A stretch of 16,608 nucleotides of DNA. It comes from Sediminispirochaeta sp. GTDB taxonomy: Bacteria > Spirochaetota > Spirochaetia > DSM-16054 > Sediminispirochaetaceae. The DNA is taken from contig DSBN01000260.1 in assembly GCA_011046055.1 (NCBI GenBank), positions 1 to 16,608 on the forward strand, read 5' to 3'. The notes beneath the pieces were generated by a model. That model had not been told where the DNA came from. It ran no database searches and saw nothing but the letters and a program-made list of their open reading frames with translations. A program made the position numbers and the translations under genes. This document shows, piece after piece, positions 144 to 6,978 of this stretch; position 1 is the stretch's first letter, and the number at the start of each line of letters is the position of its first letter.

Positions 144-2702
144 ATGGCCTTTGATGACGAAAAAAAGCACAGCAGCCTAAGCCAGGAGTCGGAGCTGGAA
201 AAGTATGGGGTCTGGGTCAAAGTAGGTCCTGAAGAGATAGACGGGGAAGACGAGCTCATCGACAGTGAGTACGAGCTCCATGATCTTAGCCCGGAGGAAG
301 GAGATACGTCGTCATCGGAGGATTCAATCAACGAACTCACGGACGAAGAAGAGGAACTACTCGGAGAACTGGAAATGGACCTTGATACTGAAAATCAGGA
401 AGAGGGTTCTGAAGATGAATTAAAATCCGAAGATTCCGATAGTGGCTCACTGGATCTCGAGGAGCCTCTTGATTTTGAAATCCCCGAAGATGAGGAAGAG
501 AGTGATAGCGAGACTGAAGATCTGGAGGACTTGGATATAGACGATCTTGAAGAACTCTCGGATTTGGAGCTTCCCGATGAGGAGAGCACCGCCGGGGATA
601 TTGGGGAGGAAGAGTCCGAGGAGATGCCTATGGAAGAAGAGGACCTCGAACTCACCGAGGATGAAGATTTAGATATTGATGAGGATCTTTTATTACAGTC
701 CGAAGACTTGGATGAGATAGAAGATCTGGATATAGATAGTTTAGTGAAAGAAGACCTGGAAGAACTGAAAGAACTCAGCGGCGTCCAGACCAGTTCGGAA
801 GGTTCGGAAGGCGAAGATTTTATAGAGGGTCAAGAGGAAGAACTCCCCATCATCGAACAAGAGATCGAAGATATCAGTCTCGACGAACTACAGCAGGAGT
901 CGGACTTGGACAAGGTGAGTTCAGACTTCGAGCCGGAGAGTGATGAAGAGATCGAAACCGAGGAAGATTTTGAGTTTGAAGATTTTGACGATCTGCAAGC
1001 TCTTGAAGAGGAGCTGCAGGAGGATGCATCCGTACCCGCCGCGGCACCTGAAACAGCGCCTGCCTCGTTTACGGACTCCGAGGAAGCAGGGACGGACTCT
1101 ACCGGTTCGGGGGAGATACTCTCCAAAATTGAGCAGGAATTGCTGTCTATTAAAAGCGAACTCTCCTCGCTAAAACAGGAGTTATCCTCTCTCCGCTCCG
1201 CCAGAGCGGATGAACCCGCAACTGCGGAGCAGGGTGTATCCAGGACGGATGAGCGGCCTCCGGAGACATCGGCAGACTCTTCGGAAGAGAAGATATCCGA
1301 GACCGGTTTTTTTGATGAAGATGAAGATGAGACAATCGCCCTCACCGGGGATGAATTGGACAATATACTCAACACGGCTCAATTCACGGAGGAGAACGGT
1401 ACCGCCGAGGTCCTGGGCGAGGATAACGAAGAAGAGACCTTTGCCGTCGAATTTGAGGATGACATAACATTGCCCGATTCGGACAATCAATCAACGGCTG
1501 ACTTGGATGAAGAGCTCTCAGGGGAAGAAGAAGAGACGGAGACTTTCGACTCAGCACAAGACCTGCCAAGCTCAGAGGAAGAAGAGCTCTCGGAAGAGCC
1601 TGAAGCGGAGATGCTTCTGGATGAAGATTACGATAACGAAGCACTGGAGCTCCCCGACGAGGACGAAGAGCTCGGCGAGCAGGAAGACATCCTCGGGGAT
1701 ATTGAAGACCTCGACGAGCTGATGGACGAATTAGAACAGGACCAGGAAGAGGAGCTCGCGGAACCCGAAACGGAGAAAGAGATTCTCCCTGACACGGAAA
1801 GCGTGGCTGATCTGCCCGATGACGAAGCAGCAGAAAACACCGCCGATGAAGCAATTGATGAAGAAGATATCGTCGACATCGACCTCAGCGATATAGAAAG
1901 CGCGACCGTTGAGGATGATCAAGAAGCACAAAGCTCCGCCACCGCGGAGGATCACGAAGAAGAAAGCGAAGAGCTGGAGAGCCTGGAAGACGAAGTCTTC
2001 GACGACCTAGAAATCGATTTGAGCAGCGAGGAAGAGGAAGCGAAGCCGGAAGCATTATCACCGGAAACCGACCAGGATTCCGCTGAAGAGTTGGCCGATC
2101 TATCTTTTGAGGAAGAGGAAATTGATCTGGCAGGCGACGAAGAGATGGAGTCCGAGGCTGAAGACGATGATGAAGAGCTCGATTTTGACAATTTTGACTT
2201 CGGCGGCATTGAAGAAAACGCCGATGATGAGGAAGCAAGCGCCAAAACCGAGGAGTTCGTACCGCCTACGCAGGACGATGGAGAGACATCAGACGAGGAC
2301 ATTGATCTGGAAAGCTTGGTGCCTTCCGATGTTGAAGAGCTGGAAAGCGAAGAAGAGCTGGATACCGATTCCATAGAGACACCGGCCGATGAGGAGATTC
2401 TCTTCGATGAGGGAGAACTGGACGAGGAGGATTCCGACATTACCTCATTGGAACCGTCCTCTCACGAAGAAGTCGATCTCAGCGATGAGTTCAGCAATCA
2501 ATCGGAGGAAGAGATCTCGGCAGCACCACCAATCTCTAACGAAGGGCTACCCGACGGTTTGAAAAGCGAGATCAAGTCGGTTCTCTCATATATGGATCAG
2601 CTTTTAGAATCACTTCCTGAGGAGAAGATACAAGAGTTCGCCAATTCTGAGCACTTCGAAGTGTACAAGCGACTTTTTGACGAGCTGGGATTGAACGAGT
2701 AG
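144..2702 (+). CDS. Very acidic, low-complexity protein with coiled coil and C-terminal helical end
   Basis: I do not recognise a named family for this 852-residue protein. Glu and Asp make up 40 of its first 100 residues, and most of the chain is the same kind of E/D/S/L-rich sequence, predicted to be disordered. Three parts stand out. The N-terminus has a short non-acidic motif around YGVWVKVGPEEI (about residues 21-32). A four-heptad coiled coil (pattern ELSSLKQ) lies near residues 325-354. The last 50 or so residues form a normal amphipathic helical segment (LKSEIKSVLSYMDQLLESLP, then FANSEHFEVYKRLFDELGL). There is no signal peptide or membrane segment, so it is probably cytoplasmic. The start is supported by the AGGAG site. 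It is the first gene of the unit, 13 bp before the next ATG. A scaffold or charged adaptor role is inference only. Such proteins usually run anomalously large on gels. Confidence 0.8.
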   Translation: MAFDDEKKHSSLSQESELEKYGVWVKVGPEEIDGEDELIDSEYELHDLSPEEGDTSSSEDSINELTDEEEELLGELEMDLDTENQEEGSEDELKSEDSDSGSLDLEEPLDFEIPEDEEESDSETEDLEDLDIDDLEELSDLELPDEESTAGDIGEEESEEMPMEEEDLELTEDEDLDIDEDLLLQSEDLDEIEDLDIDSLVKEDLEELKELSGVQTSSEGSEGEDFIEGQEEELPIIEQEIEDISLDELQQESDLDKVSSDFEPESDEEIETEEDFEFEDFDDLQALEEELQEDASVPAAAPETAPASFTDSEEAGTDSTGSGEILSKIEQELLSIKSELSSLKQELSSLRSARADEPATAEQGVSRTDERPPETSADSSEEKISETGFFDEDEDETIALTGDELDNILNTAQFTEENGTAEVLGEDNEEETFAVEFEDDITLPDSDNQSTADLDEELSGEEEETETFDSAQDLPSSEEEELSEEPEAEMLLDEDYDNEALELPDEDEELGEQEDILGDIEDLDELMDELEQDQEEELAEPETEKEILPDTESVADLPDDEAAENTADEAIDEEDIVDIDLSDIESATVEDDQEAQSSATAEDHEEESEELESLEDEVFDDLEIDLSSEEEEAKPEALSPETDQDSAEELADLSFEEEEIDLAGDEEMESEAEDDDEELDFDNFDFGGIEENADDEEASAKTEEFVPPTQDDGETSDEDIDLESLVPSDVEELESEEELDTDSIETPADEEILFDEGELDEEDSDITSLEPSSHEEVDLSDEFSNQSEEEISAAPPISNEGLPDGLKSEIKSVLSYMDQLLESLPEEKIQEFANSEHFEVYKRLFDELGLNE

Positions 2703-2715
2703 AGGGGAGGAACCG

Positions 2716-3752
2716 ATGACCGAGAGACACGACGCTAATCTTAAAATCCCCAAAAAAGGTGGTTTGCTCAGCAGCGCTATTTCCATCCAAAAAAGCGAGT
2801 CCGTACTGGATGTAAAAAAAAAAGCTCTGATAACGTTGCGCATGGTATCTTCCAGAATATAGCGGAAACGATACAAGATGCCGAAGCCTATCCTTTTGCC
2901 GCAGTCGAACTCTTTGTCCCAATTTTCGATCAAAAGATAATTAGCCGCGGAACACTGTTGCTGCCGGACCGCGAAGGTCAACGTTTCGCACCAAGGCTGC
3001 AGATAGGTCTGGATGTCTCCAGTATGCGGCGACTCCGTATTCCCATAGCACAGATCGAGTCTCACATAAAAACCGATGTGAGCCTTTTCCAACAAGATGA
3101 GTTGCTTTTCCTGGAACCATTTCTTTCTAGAAGAATATTTGAGTCCAGCGAGCAGGCCCTGTTTATAGCATTTCGCAAATCTGGAAAGTGTATTGCTCTC
3201 CTCTTGGAGTTGGACGGTGAGGCGGAGGACAATTTTCCGGTTTTAGAGGCCTTTCCACAACCTTTACTGATCGAAACCACGGATTTCTTGATGAGATCAC
3301 GCAAAAAACTCTCTGGGTCGGTGCAAAACACCTGCTCCGAAGCGTCTCAACTCATGCAAAGGACCGAACGAACAATAAATCAAGCAAAAAACGAAGGCAA
3401 GCACCTGCTGTTTCTCATCTTGGACCTCAGCCCTCTTCTGGATGCGCTGACTGAAATTTCCCCCAGCTTGGATAGGTTTACCCTTGCCGAGGATCTAAGG
3501 GGTGGTCTTTCCTTGCTGACCACCGATCAGGGATTCTGCGCCGAAGGAAAGGACGACTACACAATCATGGCTCTCATCAGCAAGAAAGCCCATAGTCGTA
3601 GCGTGCTGGTCCACCAAATAAACAACCTATTGAAGAGAGAGTGGTTTGGCGGACGGGAGATTCCGCCCTTGAAAATTTTTAGCAGAACTTGGCCGGAAGA
3701 CGGCAAGCAAGCCGAAGAACTACTCGCCGATTTTATTTTGAAGCGAAAATGA
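2716..3752 (+). CDS. Protein of unknown function, frame broken at an A10 tract (needs a -1 shift)
   Basis: The natural start is the ATG at 2716, preceded by GGGGAGG. It opens a frame that runs 48 codons and stops at TAG 2860-2862. The frame leading to the stop at 3750-3752 is open from well before that point. The two frames meet at ten consecutive A (2814-2823). Reading one base back there, or adding one A, joins DVKKK to SSDNVAHGIFQNIAETIQ and gives a continuous protein of about 345 residues. No ATG with a ribosome site starts the downstream part; the first plausible codon is a TTG at 2958. The chain looks soluble, with no membrane segments. The C-terminal third (FLILDLS near 3415, then DDYTIM, and FSRTWPEDGKQAEELLADFI at the end) vaguely resembles a degenerate GGDEF-like fold, but I would not assign it. 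The stop overlaps the next ATG (ATGA, 3749-3752). The break could be programmed slippage, phase variation, a real mutation or a homopolymer sequencing error. Confidence 0.72.
2814..2823 (+). repeat. A10 homopolymer / potential slippery site
   Basis: Ten A residues lie inside the second gene of the operon. In the start frame they read GTA AAA AAA AAA GCT, which contains the A AAA AAA heptamer favoured for -1 ribosomal slippage. Runs of nine or more A are also known substrates for transcriptional slippage and strand-slippage mutation. One extra A restores a single open frame. Confidence 0.85.
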
Positions 3753-5299
3753 GTACCGAGCAGTCTCCACAAATCTCGCTGCACTCCAAGTACCGTCCTC
3801 AGCTCGAAGCGCAAAGATACCTTGACTCCTTGGATTTGAAGCGTAGCATCAGCACTTTTTTACTCATTGAACCCGGACATGGTTACTTGAGCGGAGAGCT
3901 CCGAAAGAGGTACCCCAGGGCTAAAGTATTGGAAGTGCACTGCGATCCGGTATTCGCAGCGTCGAGGAATACCGAAGATACTTTTCTCTGGACTCCGGTG
4001 GAGCAGCTCTCTTTATGGGCTTTCCTCTCCACGCATATACATGATTTAGAATTGGGAAGCTTAGAATTAATAGAATGGCCTCCGGCGGAAAGGCGTTACG
4101 GCGAATCGTACCATCGGGTACTTAAGGATGTGCTGTTGTTCTTGCAAAACCGAAGATCCGTAGTACATACCACCGGGATTTTCGGGCCTTTGTGGCTGCG
4201 CAACACCTTTCTACGCTTGCTGAGCTCCCCCATCATTATGGAGCCTTTTATCGAAAATCGCCCGATACTAGTCGCCGCCGGCGGACCAAGCCTGGAATCA
4301 GCCATTCAGCTCTTAAAATCAGCCCCCGCGTCCTACGCCGTCTGGGCCCTGCCCTCGGCTCTTCGAGCTTTAAGGGCGGCTAATATTCCCATCGACCTGC
4401 TTATCCACAGCGATCCAGGCTACTACGCTCAGCGGCATCTTCTATGGCTGCCCCAGAGTTCAGACTCGGCGTCTCCTCTGTTCGCCGCCCTTCCCACTCG
4501 ACGGCGGGAACAGCCCACTCTGCTTCTCCACAGCCATAGCCGGATCGAAGATTTTTTTATATCCCGACTCTCCTTGCCGGCAGCGGATGTGATCGCCCAT
4601 GGAACCGTCGCTGGAACGGCCCTGTCGTTGGCCGAGAGGTACAGCAGGGGGCCAGTTATCTTCTCCGGTCTTGACCTCGAGTTTCAGGATATAAAGAGTC
4701 ACGTATCACCCCACGGTTTCGACGAACTGCTTTTCGCCTCGAGCCATCGTTTTGATCCTATTGAGGAGGTGTACTACCGTCGAAGTCCTCGCTCGCAGGG
4801 AGAAGACAAGAAAAGAAGCTTCGCCTTGAATCGATACAAGGATTGGTTTTCTTCCCTCCCGCCCCAAAAACATGGTCGCTATTTTCGACTTTTTCCCTCA
4901 TCGACAAAAATTCCCTTTTTTCTCGATATCAACAACGAATCAGATCTAAAACGGCAATTGACCGGGAGTACCATTGATGAGCGTAGCACCGCTCACACGG
5001 TTCTTCACCCTCATCGAGCCGATACGGTAATAAAAGAGTATTTTGACCGTATAGAGAAAGAGATTGCTTCGATGACACGGAGATTTCAAACGAAGCCTTT
5101 CGTCGACCTCCTTCGTCAGCACCCCTTAGCCACTGAGTTCTTGAGCTACTGCTGCTACCCGCAGCTCTTTCGGGTTCATATGGACAAGCTCAAAGACGGA
5201 GGGTCTGGGGCTGGAGCCATGGCAGAGCTTCGGCACCGGGGTTTGCACGCGATAGACAAGTATCGACAAGTTACAAATACCCTGGGGGCTACGGGATGA
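3749..5299 (+). CDS. Maf/DUF115 (MptE-like) protein, first of two paralogues
   Basis: Member of the 6-hydroxymethylpterin pyrophosphokinase MptE-like / Maf superfamily. Bacterial Maf proteins act with nonulosonic-acid pathways to glycosylate flagellins, probably as glycosyltransferases. The core of this 516-residue protein shows the family landmarks: AAGGPSL (about residues 176-182), PIDLLIHSDP (214-223) and GTVAGTALSLAERYSRGPVI, followed by FSGLDLEF (about 285-312). The histidine of the usual GG-x-V-x-H motif is replaced by Gly (VAGTA), and the segment after the GLDL motif differs from that of the next gene. The N-terminal 150 residues are less conserved but include a Rossmann-like FLLIEPGHGYLSGEL stretch. 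I chose the ATG at 3749 because it overlaps the upstream stop as ATGA; the in-frame ATG at 3689 lies inside the previous gene. No signal peptide is seen, so it should be cytoplasmic. Confidence 0.8.
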   Translation: MSTEQSPQISLHSKYRPQLEAQRYLDSLDLKRSISTFLLIEPGHGYLSGELRKRYPRAKVLEVHCDPVFAASRNTEDTFLWTPVEQLSLWAFLSTHIHDLELGSLELIEWPPAERRYGESYHRVLKDVLLFLQNRRSVVHTTGIFGPLWLRNTFLRLLSSPIIMEPFIENRPILVAAGGPSLESAIQLLKSAPASYAVWALPSALRALRAANIPIDLLIHSDPGYYAQRHLLWLPQSSDSASPLFAALPTRRREQPTLLLHSHSRIEDFFISRLSLPAADVIAHGTVAGTALSLAERYSRGPVIFSGLDLEFQDIKSHVSPHGFDELLFASSHRFDPIEEVYYRRSPRSQGEDKKRSFALNRYKDWFSSLPPQKHGRYFRLFPSSTKIPFFLDINNESDLKRQLTGSTIDERSTAHTVLHPHRADTVIKEYFDRIEKEIASMTRRFQTKPFVDLLRQHPLATEFLSYCCYPQLFRVHMDKLKDGGSGAGAMAELRHRGLHAIDKYRQVTNTLGATG

Positions 5300-6978
5300 A
5301 TACGAATGGGGTGCTCAGCAGAAACATGCTCTCCCTTTCATCGGCGCAGCCGGCTCTTTCGGCCCGAATCGGGGCCCAAGAGCCATCTATAATGGTCGAT
5401 GTGGTTCCATCCAAATCGGGCGAGCCGGTTCCGGTACTTTTTCAGGATGATAGAAAATATTACCTGCATTCTAGAATAGATCCGGAAAAGGAGGGGCGAA
5501 GATTTTACGACTCTTCGCCCTACGGTGGTTATCTCGTCTTTCTTGGATTCGGCGCCGGTCATCATATCTTGCCCTACCTCAAAAGAAACGATATTTCAGG
5601 CATTTTGATCATTGATTACGACGCAGCTTTATTCAAATCTATTTTAGCAAAGATCGACCTGCGTCCGTTTTTTTTGGATTCACGGGTGCGCTTTCTCATC
5701 GAGCCTCAGCCCGAAGAGATTGTGAAGGACATGCTGGACAACTACCTTCCGGCGGTTTCTGGTAACTTTCACCTCTTGCAACTCCGAGCACGCGTTCAAT
5801 CGGCGCCGAGCCGATTCAACCAGGCCAAGGAAGAGATCCAGCGCGTACTGAAGTCGATTTCCGAGGACTATTCGGTGCAGTCTTACTTTGGGAAGCGCTG
5901 GTTTATCAACAGTCTGGAGAACCTTAAAGTGGCGGAGTTCTCCACCACCACCCTGCCTCCGATCCGCCATGCCTTGATTACCGCCGCCGGACCGTCATTG
6001 GAATTGCAGCTGAATGAGCTCAAAAGGCTCAAGAGTCAAGGCACTCTCATAGCCACCGATACCTCGCTCCCCTTTCTTCTCAACCACGATATTCTACCGG
6101 ACATGGTAATTTCCATAGATTGTCAGCACGTGACTTACCACCATTTCATGTCGGGCTATCCGGAACGGGTTCCCTTGATACTGGACCTAGCCTCCCCCAA
6201 CCACCTTACTCGCCAAACCGACAAACTGGTCTTTTTCACCAGCGGGCATCCATTTTCCCGGTATGTCAACAGCAACTGGCGGCGTTTTCCCTTTATTGAC
6301 ACCTCCGGGGGGAATGTTGGTCACGCCGCCGTCAGCTTGGCCGAAGCATTGGGCGCACAGCGGATATCTCTCTTCGGGATGGATTTCTCTTTTCCCAACG
6401 GGAAGAGCTACGCCCGAGGAACCTATCTCTACCCCTTTTTCCAGCATACGGCCAATAGATTTCTCACTACCGAACTTTCTTTTATGAAGCTGCTGTTTCG
6501 CAACGACAGCATTATCAAGATAAAAGATGGGAATAACTTCCGATATACTACCAGACCGATGATCAGTTACAAAGAGAGATTGGAGCAGGCATTCACCCAT
6601 CTGAACGCAAAGGTTGAACCGATGCCGGGAAGAGGAGAGCCGATCCGCCGTCATCCGGGTAGGGAAGAGTACCGAGAGAAGCAGATGGTGTCTCGACTTT
6701 TTTCCGCCGGCGCCGCCGAAGAACCATGGGAAGATTTTCTGCGCTCCTATCGTGAAGCTTTGCTCCTCCTCCCCGAGGCATCCGAGTCTCTATGGGACTA
6801 TAAAGCGTCTCTGAATAAAAAACAGAGAGATATACTCACAACCCTCTACCCGGCGGCTGCGGCAATGAGACGAGAGCACGAGCTGATTGGATTGCATCGC
6901 GCCGGTGCGAGAATAATTCCCGATGTCATAGACTGGAGTGTCGCGGTAATCGATAGTCAACTGGAGGCACTGGAGTAG
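5296..6978 (+). CDS. Maf/DUF115 flagellin-modification-type glycosyltransferase, second paralogue
   Basis: This 560-residue member of the Maf/DUF115 family is closer to the canonical pattern than its upstream neighbour. Landmarks are an N-terminal Rossmann-like FLGFGAGHHILPYL (about 82-95), AAGPSL (230-235), PDMVISIDCQ (268-277), TSGGNVGHAAVSLAEALG (336-353) and GMDFSFPNGKSYARG (361-375). Known Maf proteins transfer pseudaminic or legionaminic acid type sugars to Ser/Thr of flagellin in the cytoplasm; the sugar and target here are not visible. The start overlaps the previous stop as ATGA, and a GGGG-rich stretch precedes it, so the two proteins are probably made in fixed ratio. A T8 run (5668-5675) encodes Phe-Phe without breaking the frame. 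The 3' end overlaps the convergent MEMO gene by 22 bp. Confidence 0.85.
   Translation: MNTNGVLSRNMLSLSSAQPALSARIGAQEPSIMVDVVPSKSGEPVPVLFQDDRKYYLHSRIDPEKEGRRFYDSSPYGGYLVFLGFGAGHHILPYLKRNDISGILIIDYDAALFKSILAKIDLRPFFLDSRVRFLIEPQPEEIVKDMLDNYLPAVSGNFHLLQLRARVQSAPSRFNQAKEEIQRVLKSISEDYSVQSYFGKRWFINSLENLKVAEFSTTTLPPIRHALITAAGPSLELQLNELKRLKSQGTLIATDTSLPFLLNHDILPDMVISIDCQHVTYHHFMSGYPERVPLILDLASPNHLTRQTDKLVFFTSGHPFSRYVNSNWRRFPFIDTSGGNVGHAAVSLAEALGAQRISLFGMDFSFPNGKSYARGTYLYPFFQHTANRFLTTELSFMKLLFRNDSIIKIKDGNNFRYTTRPMISYKERLEQAFTHLNAKVEPMPGRGEPIRRHPGREEYREKQMVSRLFSAGAAEEPWEDFLRSYREALLLLPEASESLWDYKASLNKKQRDILTTLYPAAAAMRREHELIGLHRAGARIIPDVIDWSVAVIDSQLEALE

Follow-up and report, generated by a model that had tools for sequence, protein, structure and literature searches.

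A gene split between two frames at a run of ten As

Why should a conserved gene be split between two reading frames at a run of ten As? The question is raised by a gene of Sediminispirochaeta sp. located on a stretch of 16,608 nucleotides, which was analysed at its full length and is called the window in the following. The window represents contig 9 of a fragmented assembly (2.29 Mb in 400 contigs, 68% complete). As read from the window letters, the gene begins at ATG 2716, proceeds for 48 codons and ends at TAG 2860-2862. The original prediction had described this start frame and its good ribosome site, the continuation of the protein in the -1 frame, the meeting of both frames at an A10 tract (2814-2823) containing an A AAA AAA heptamer, and the ATGA overlaps linking two downstream Maf genes. 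All of these features were confirmed in the sequence, with the overlaps located at 3749-3752 and 5296-5299 (Table 1).

The domain frame, i.e., the -1 frame encoding the downstream part, is open from position 2745 to TGA 3750-3752 and contains 308 codons beyond the A10. Its sole start codon before position 3000, TTG 2958, already lies within the domain. The third frame has no more than a short open stretch, from 2816 to 2830. The offset between start frame and domain frame corresponds to a -1 shift of the ribosome or to one extra A in the mRNA. No other A or T run in the window reaches nine, and base composition alone predicts about 0.013 A10 starts per strand of the window. The same gene is present in a relative of the same genus (G001, locus L002).

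Table 1 Features of the A10 gene and its neighbours in the window.
Feature	Position	Strand	Remarks
Upstream gene, 852-aa acidic (Asp/Glu-rich) protein with conserved C-terminal end	144..2702	+	No Pfam match
Ribosome binding site and spacer	2702..2715	+	GGGGAGG 5' of ATG 2716; from sequence
Zero-frame ORF, short product	2716..2862	+	48 codons; from sequence
A10, putative slip site	2814..2823	+	Domain frame shifted by one relative to the start frame
Predicted GAF domain, then predicted GGDEF-fold domain without GGDEF motif	2824..3752	+	-1 frame; 2826-3749 modelled
Maf/MptE-like gene 1	3749..5299	+	PF01973, E 8.6e-12; start overlaps preceding stop, ATGA 3749-3752
Maf/MptE-like gene 2	5296..6978	+	PF01973, E 3.5e-31; ATGA overlap 5296-5299

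Run and offset recur across the family

A search with the downstream part of the gene detected it in 21 of 60 relatives, and A10 runs were again located at the same place in loci from this search. The downstream protein is conserved: a profile search covering 394 genomes of the class matched it in 143, and its weakest or incomplete hits are represented only in part among the examined loci. These comprised 130 loci from the relative and profile searches (123 genomes after clean-up) and 80 loci reached via the downstream Maf gene. Among the latter, 42 yielded both a start and a match to the domain, and motif and position served to place another 24. Loci with an identical last 90 nt were regarded as duplicates, which reduced 194 to 161 records, and removal of five of the rows listed below left 156 members. 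Rows were dropped when the start was off the contig (L143, which has an A10), the sequence contained N (L110), the start of a gene in frame had been mis-called (L080 and its duplicate L219) or the loci were not orthologues (L176 and L180). For L130 and L140 no start was obtained. Start calling gave preference to MG-L starts and, where the start was out of frame, to candidates with a run in their frame, which could bias single cases but not the overall pattern. Omission of four 5'-truncated loci (L017, L092, L119 and L211) from the 156 gave the 152 members used for counting.

A run of at least A9 together with the offset of the window was found in 52 of these 152 distinct untruncated members, and 48 of the 52 runs were exactly A10. 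The comparison of the tract in related genomes, proposed in the original prediction, thereby revealed both run and offset to be kept. Another 13 members carry a run of at least A9 in frame, and 85 are in frame without such a run. The remaining two (L215 and L218) show the other offset, both with A9 where A10 is usual, i.e., out-of-frame offsets are split 52 to 2 in favour of that of the window. The 52 members span 16 family codes and eight further MAGs. Addition of L119 (A10, start off the contig) resulted in 53 runs, composed of 49 A10, one A9, one A11 and two A12, and a single offset is common to all of them. Since the offset is kept at lengths 9, 11 and 12 too, the relation between the two frames appears to be under selection, and it appears to be the offset rather than the run length that is conserved.

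Runs of this length are rare in the surroundings of the gene. The coding strand surrounding the 53 loci (286,089 nt) contains one other run of at least A9. Given this rarity and the recurrence of the A10 at the same junction in relatives, its placement is far beyond chance. GC content is at least 0.55 in 34 of the 53 loci, where the run is unbroken (33 A10, one A9), and AAG and AAA are used 111 versus 92 times in the rest of these 34 genes. Apart from the run itself, its flanks share little between loci.

The out-of-frame state is spread over the domain tree, the end branches of which reach 1-2 changes per site. A quick tree of 104 rows, including two with the start off the contig (L017 and L092), needs 12 changes of this state, only four of which are forced by well-supported branches. 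A10 is found throughout in the families f28, f40, f41 and f43. In f6, in-frame A10 and A11 occur beside out-of-frame A10, and in-frame runs of A10-A13 and A10-A12 are found in f12 and f23, respectively. A slip is not needed everywhere, since 85 of the 152 members have no run and 13 have it in frame. Conservation of A10 in out-of-frame as well as in-frame members suggests a need for two products.

Sequencing error, phase switching and internal starts

The original prediction had offered three readings of the tract, programmed slippage, a phase switch or a broken gene, with a homopolymer miscall as the main alternative. A miscall in sequencing or assembly, or a recent private frameshift killing the gene, would be in line with a fragmented, 68% complete assembly and with the existence of intact relatives. 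It fails to explain, however, why the same run and offset are found in 52 distinct members from 16 family codes and eight further MAGs, and why the downstream domain stays open and conserved. With this recurrence the miscall lost its rank as main alternative, and we assign practically no weight to it. Intact relatives without a run, regarded beforehand as a sign of an error or a private mutation, do exist (85 of 152 members), yet they do not refute programmed slippage, given the wide conservation of the run in other members of the family. The comparison of sequences strongly supports, to near certainty, the A10 as a programmed slip site, and as neither a miscall nor a private mutation.

In the case of phase variation, replication slippage would change the length of the tract in the DNA and turn the gene on or off, and the assemblies would mostly have caught off states. 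Length variants and in-frame runs as in f6, f12 and f23 would fit such a switch, as would the other offset seen at the A10 of a TauE-like gene in the window's genome. The two offsets should then be about equally frequent, but they were found 52 to 2. Moreover, 48 of 52 runs are exactly A10, the members with A9, A11 and A12 keep the same offset, and dnaX of the window's genome is of the same design. Phase variation is thus a very improbable explanation. Among the three readings, programmed slippage is the one that stood, on the basis of 52 members with one offset, whereas the phase switch was disfavoured by the constancy of length and offset and the broken gene by conservation.

An internal start for the domain was also considered and rejected. 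In the window, TTG 2958 inside the domain would be the only candidate. Nor is an internal start a general answer, as within 120 nt after the run 29 of the 53 loci have none, 15 have GTG or TTG only and nine have ATG. In 52 of the 53 loci, there is no start codon 5' of the run in the domain frame.

Other A10 tracts in the same genomes

The assembly of the window's genome (2.29 Mb) contains six tracts of at least A10. One of them lies in dnaX (L261, G000:C110, minus strand, 2479-2488), after domain III, and shows the offset of the window gene; GKKKSP precedes the stop of the short form, and the long form goes on in the -1 frame. Another one (L262, G000:C224:2767-2776) connects a ChlI-like AAA ORF, which ends with LKKKSPA at its stop, with a VWA ORF that is read in the -1 frame. 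This corresponds to a chlD-like arrangement, and the offset is again that of the window gene. A10 is so rare in some genomes that listing every A10 amounts to listing candidate slippage genes, and in the window's genome such a list picked out dnaX and the chlD-like gene. In G018 and G019 (each 81% complete), the single A10 of the assembly is the one in this gene. The single A10 of G025 (97% complete) is also located in this gene, but in frame.

Among the other tracts of the window's genome, the A10 of L030 (G000:C7:8801-8810) is located at a frame junction of the TauE/SafE-like gene with the other offset, and this split may be a true break or a switch. The A10 of L263 (G000:C239:1639-1648) lies upstream of the start of a GroEL-like gene, named by eye from the sequence, and the sixth tract is antisense to a long reading frame.

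For dnaX, 31 loci were compared, i.e., the best 30 of 53 genomes with a match and the window genome's own. The gene breaks at an A-run in six of the 31 loci, all with the same offset (one A9, three A10 and two A11), and carries an in-frame run in three (A10 in G008 and G033, A9 in G053). In G008 and G033, the window-type gene has an in-frame run as well. Two genomes of f6 carry in-frame A10 or A11 runs in dnaX (L298 and L300) and in the window-type gene (L007 and L015), where slipping would make the short form in both genes. In L086, from the same genus as these two genomes, the window-type gene is out of frame.

Probable slippage by polymerase or ribosome

We hold with considerable confidence that programmed slippage of RNA polymerase on the A10 yields a short peptide and a long, sensor-like protein from one gene. 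RNA polymerase would slip on the A10 in a fraction of transcripts and add an A. Unslipped transcripts would be translated in the zero frame to the nearby stop, resulting in a peptide that comprises a few dozen residues and includes the helix motif GLLx(K/R)A, while in the slipped product the same motif would be linked to a GAF and degenerate-GGDEF sensor-like module. Both products would be used, and the slip rate would also limit the number of ribosomes arriving at the overlapping Maf start.

Most of the slipping would be done by the polymerase rather than the ribosome. This assignment is favoured because the run is never shorter than nine and never interrupted in the counted frame-broken members, because all three codon phases occur (34, 9 and 5 of the 48 A10 runs, with 34 in phase 1), even inside family f28, and because stimulators of ribosomal shifting are hardly in evidence. 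L110 may be broken in frame without having a run, but it was excluded from the count because its sequence contains N. Folding of the 70 nt downstream of the runs in the 53 loci gave a mean z of -0.62 compared to -0.08 for control windows, and z was below -2 in 13% versus 6%. SD-like sites were present in nine of 53 loci and 29 of 318 control windows, slightly above control. No conserved RNA stimulator was evident from this pseudoknot-free folding.

Alternatively, the long form could arise through a programmed -1 shift of the ribosome on A AAA AAA or A AAA AAG within the run. The uniform offset equals that of a -1 ribosomal slip, every A10 contains the slippery heptamer A AAA AAA, phase 1 accounts for 34 of the 48 A10 runs, and 26 of the 48 have an AAA AAG end containing the E. 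coli ribosomal heptamer. The slight excess of downstream folding and SD-like sites points in the same direction. However, A7 or A6G suffices in E. coli dnaX according to an excerpt of PMC3711429, yet no counted frame-broken member has a run below A9. The occurrence of all three codon phases, and the lack of a uniform stimulatory structure in the pseudoknot-free folding, also argue against the ribosome, which we consider unlikely to replace the polymerase as the source of the long form. Given the excess of phase 1 and the AAA AAG ends, the ribosome may nevertheless help at the A10.

With polymerase slippage as the preferred reading, a slip yield of tens of percent would be expected by analogy with chelatase cassettes in E. 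coli, for which an excerpt of PMC3711429 gives 63% with 11 As, 40% with 9 and 10% with 7.

Relation to known recoded genes

The comparisons with known genes draw on excerpts of the cited papers. dnaX and chlD are known recoding families (PMC3711429, PMC9227772). Slippage on A9 is described for Thermus dnaX (PMC3711429, PMC5009743), and transcriptional realignment was inferred for nine two-ORF dnaX genes with 10 As by Antonov et al. 2013 (PMC3711429). The A10 gene resembles these two-ORF dnaX genes in that the run comprises about ten A, the -1 frame encodes the longer product and the short product ends soon after the run. In-frame and out-of-frame versions of dnaX both exist in the class, and dnaX of the window's genome follows the same design. 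dnaX slips late, whereas the A10 gene would slip about 34 codons in (median), leaving just a motif-bearing peptide as its short product.

A frameshifted chlD has been named for Spirochaeta thermophila (PMC9227772). The -1 genes of chlD and Mg-chelatase share with the A10 gene the A-run, the direction of the shift and two proteins per gene, but both chelatase products are large and there is no Maf operon. In Shigella spa13/spa32, the transcriptional slip site is found after 58 codons and 25-30% of slipped product is made; the extension of spa13 overlaps the start of the next gene, the expression of which is affected by slippage (PMC5009743). The early slip site and the overlap with the next start are thus alike, whereas the proteins are unrelated and belong to type III secretion.

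No mention of the A10 gene was found in the excerpts of PMC3711429, PMC5009743, PMC1088944, PMC9227772 and PMC12236494. Likewise, no title among those returned from open PMC papers deals with slippage of this gene, which may nevertheless be listed in the supplementary GeneTack cluster tables of PMC3711429. On the evidence of sequence comparison, the A10 gene is a new family among the known A-run slippage genes, represented in many families of one bacterial class. If true, the short list of bacterial programmed-slippage genes gains a deeply conserved family, which is regulatory-looking, unlike genes for replication or chelatase subunits.

The operon and its Maf-type genes

The operon has a conserved order of acidic protein, A10 gene and two Maf/MptE-like genes. 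In 149 of the 150 loci offering enough space, the A10 gene is immediately preceded by a match to the end of the acidic protein, and it is directly followed by a Maf-type match in 152 of 156 loci. The best-hit identity of the acidic protein's end has a median of 71% in the 150 loci, window included; outside this conserved end, the protein is low-complexity and acidic.

In both downstream genes of the window, the MptE-like domain (PF01973) scored above cut-off. Gene 2 reached 22.2 of 23.5 bits with Maf_flag10_N and 54.2 of 670 bits with the PseD model, both below cut-off, and gene 1 matched neither the Maf N-terminal nor the PseD model. Since the finer Maf and PseD models remain below their cut-offs, "Maf" is used here as a family-level label. 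The two Maf-type genes are thought to decorate flagella.

An effect of slipping on Maf expression, proposed in the original prediction as control of Maf translation by the rate of frame correction, is plausible by analogy. In a stronger form of this idea, which is compatible with polymerase slippage as the source of the long form, slippage would chiefly control Maf by translational coupling, with peptide and sensor being secondary. The ATGA overlaps at 3749 and 5296 and the precedent of Shigella spa13/spa32 (excerpt of PMC5009743) support this possibility. However, the stop of the A10 gene overlaps the Maf1 start in 42 of 85 measured members that lack a run and are in frame, about the same frequency as in out-of-frame members (31 of 52 measured), and Maf1 may have its own ribosome entry. 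We therefore doubt that Maf control is the chief role of the slip. As the overlap is about equally common without a run, it was rejected as a special mark of A10 members, and coupling is a general property of the operon.

The two proposed products

Beyond the preferred reading of two products from one slipping polymerase, their relation can be described tentatively. The A10 might be part of an ancient poly-A ratio device in a motility-glycosylation operon, in which the bare GLLx(K/R)A peptide and the sensor-fused peptide compete for one partner; some lineages would have flipped polarity, with an in-frame A10 and a slip to the short form. This remains a speculation that could well be wrong.

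The putative short product of the window gene carries GGLLSSA, its form of the family motif GLLx(K/R)A, and the slip position has a median of ~34 codons after the start in the 53 loci. The zero-frame tail was considered as a carrier of conserved function, which was rejected as tails range from 0 to 28 codons and differ in sequence.

The structure of 2826-3749 was predicted with a pLDDT of 88.2 and a pTM of 0.84. The long form is best read as a GAF domain followed by a degenerate GGDEF-fold module, a predicted assignment placed by fold comparison alone. Pfam and NCBIfam returned no match for the window protein, a Pfam scan of 29 members yielded one weak GAF_3 match (E 0.016), and a PDB sequence search gave nothing better than E 0.33. 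The GAF-GGDEF proteins DcsBis (4zmu) and PelD (4eu0) are alike in domain order alone, with identities of 5-20% and poor whole-chain superposition (TM 0.36 and 0.25, respectively, by query length). They differ from the A10-gene family in that the GG(D/E)EF active site is absent from the window protein and only 3 of 156 members show a loose form of the motif.

A protein search returned 12 proteins called "hypothetical protein" or without a name. The database protein of L003 (P0002) has 298 residues compared to an open frame of 354, and 298 is the length given by a late start at an internal GTG. Gene callers miss the real product of this gene, as this example illustrates. In six MAGs named Treponema or Spirochaetaceae (L231, L239, L250, L251, L252 and L260), a shrunken gene of 112-123 residues occupies the same place in the operon and still begins with MGLLSKA or MGLLRKA.
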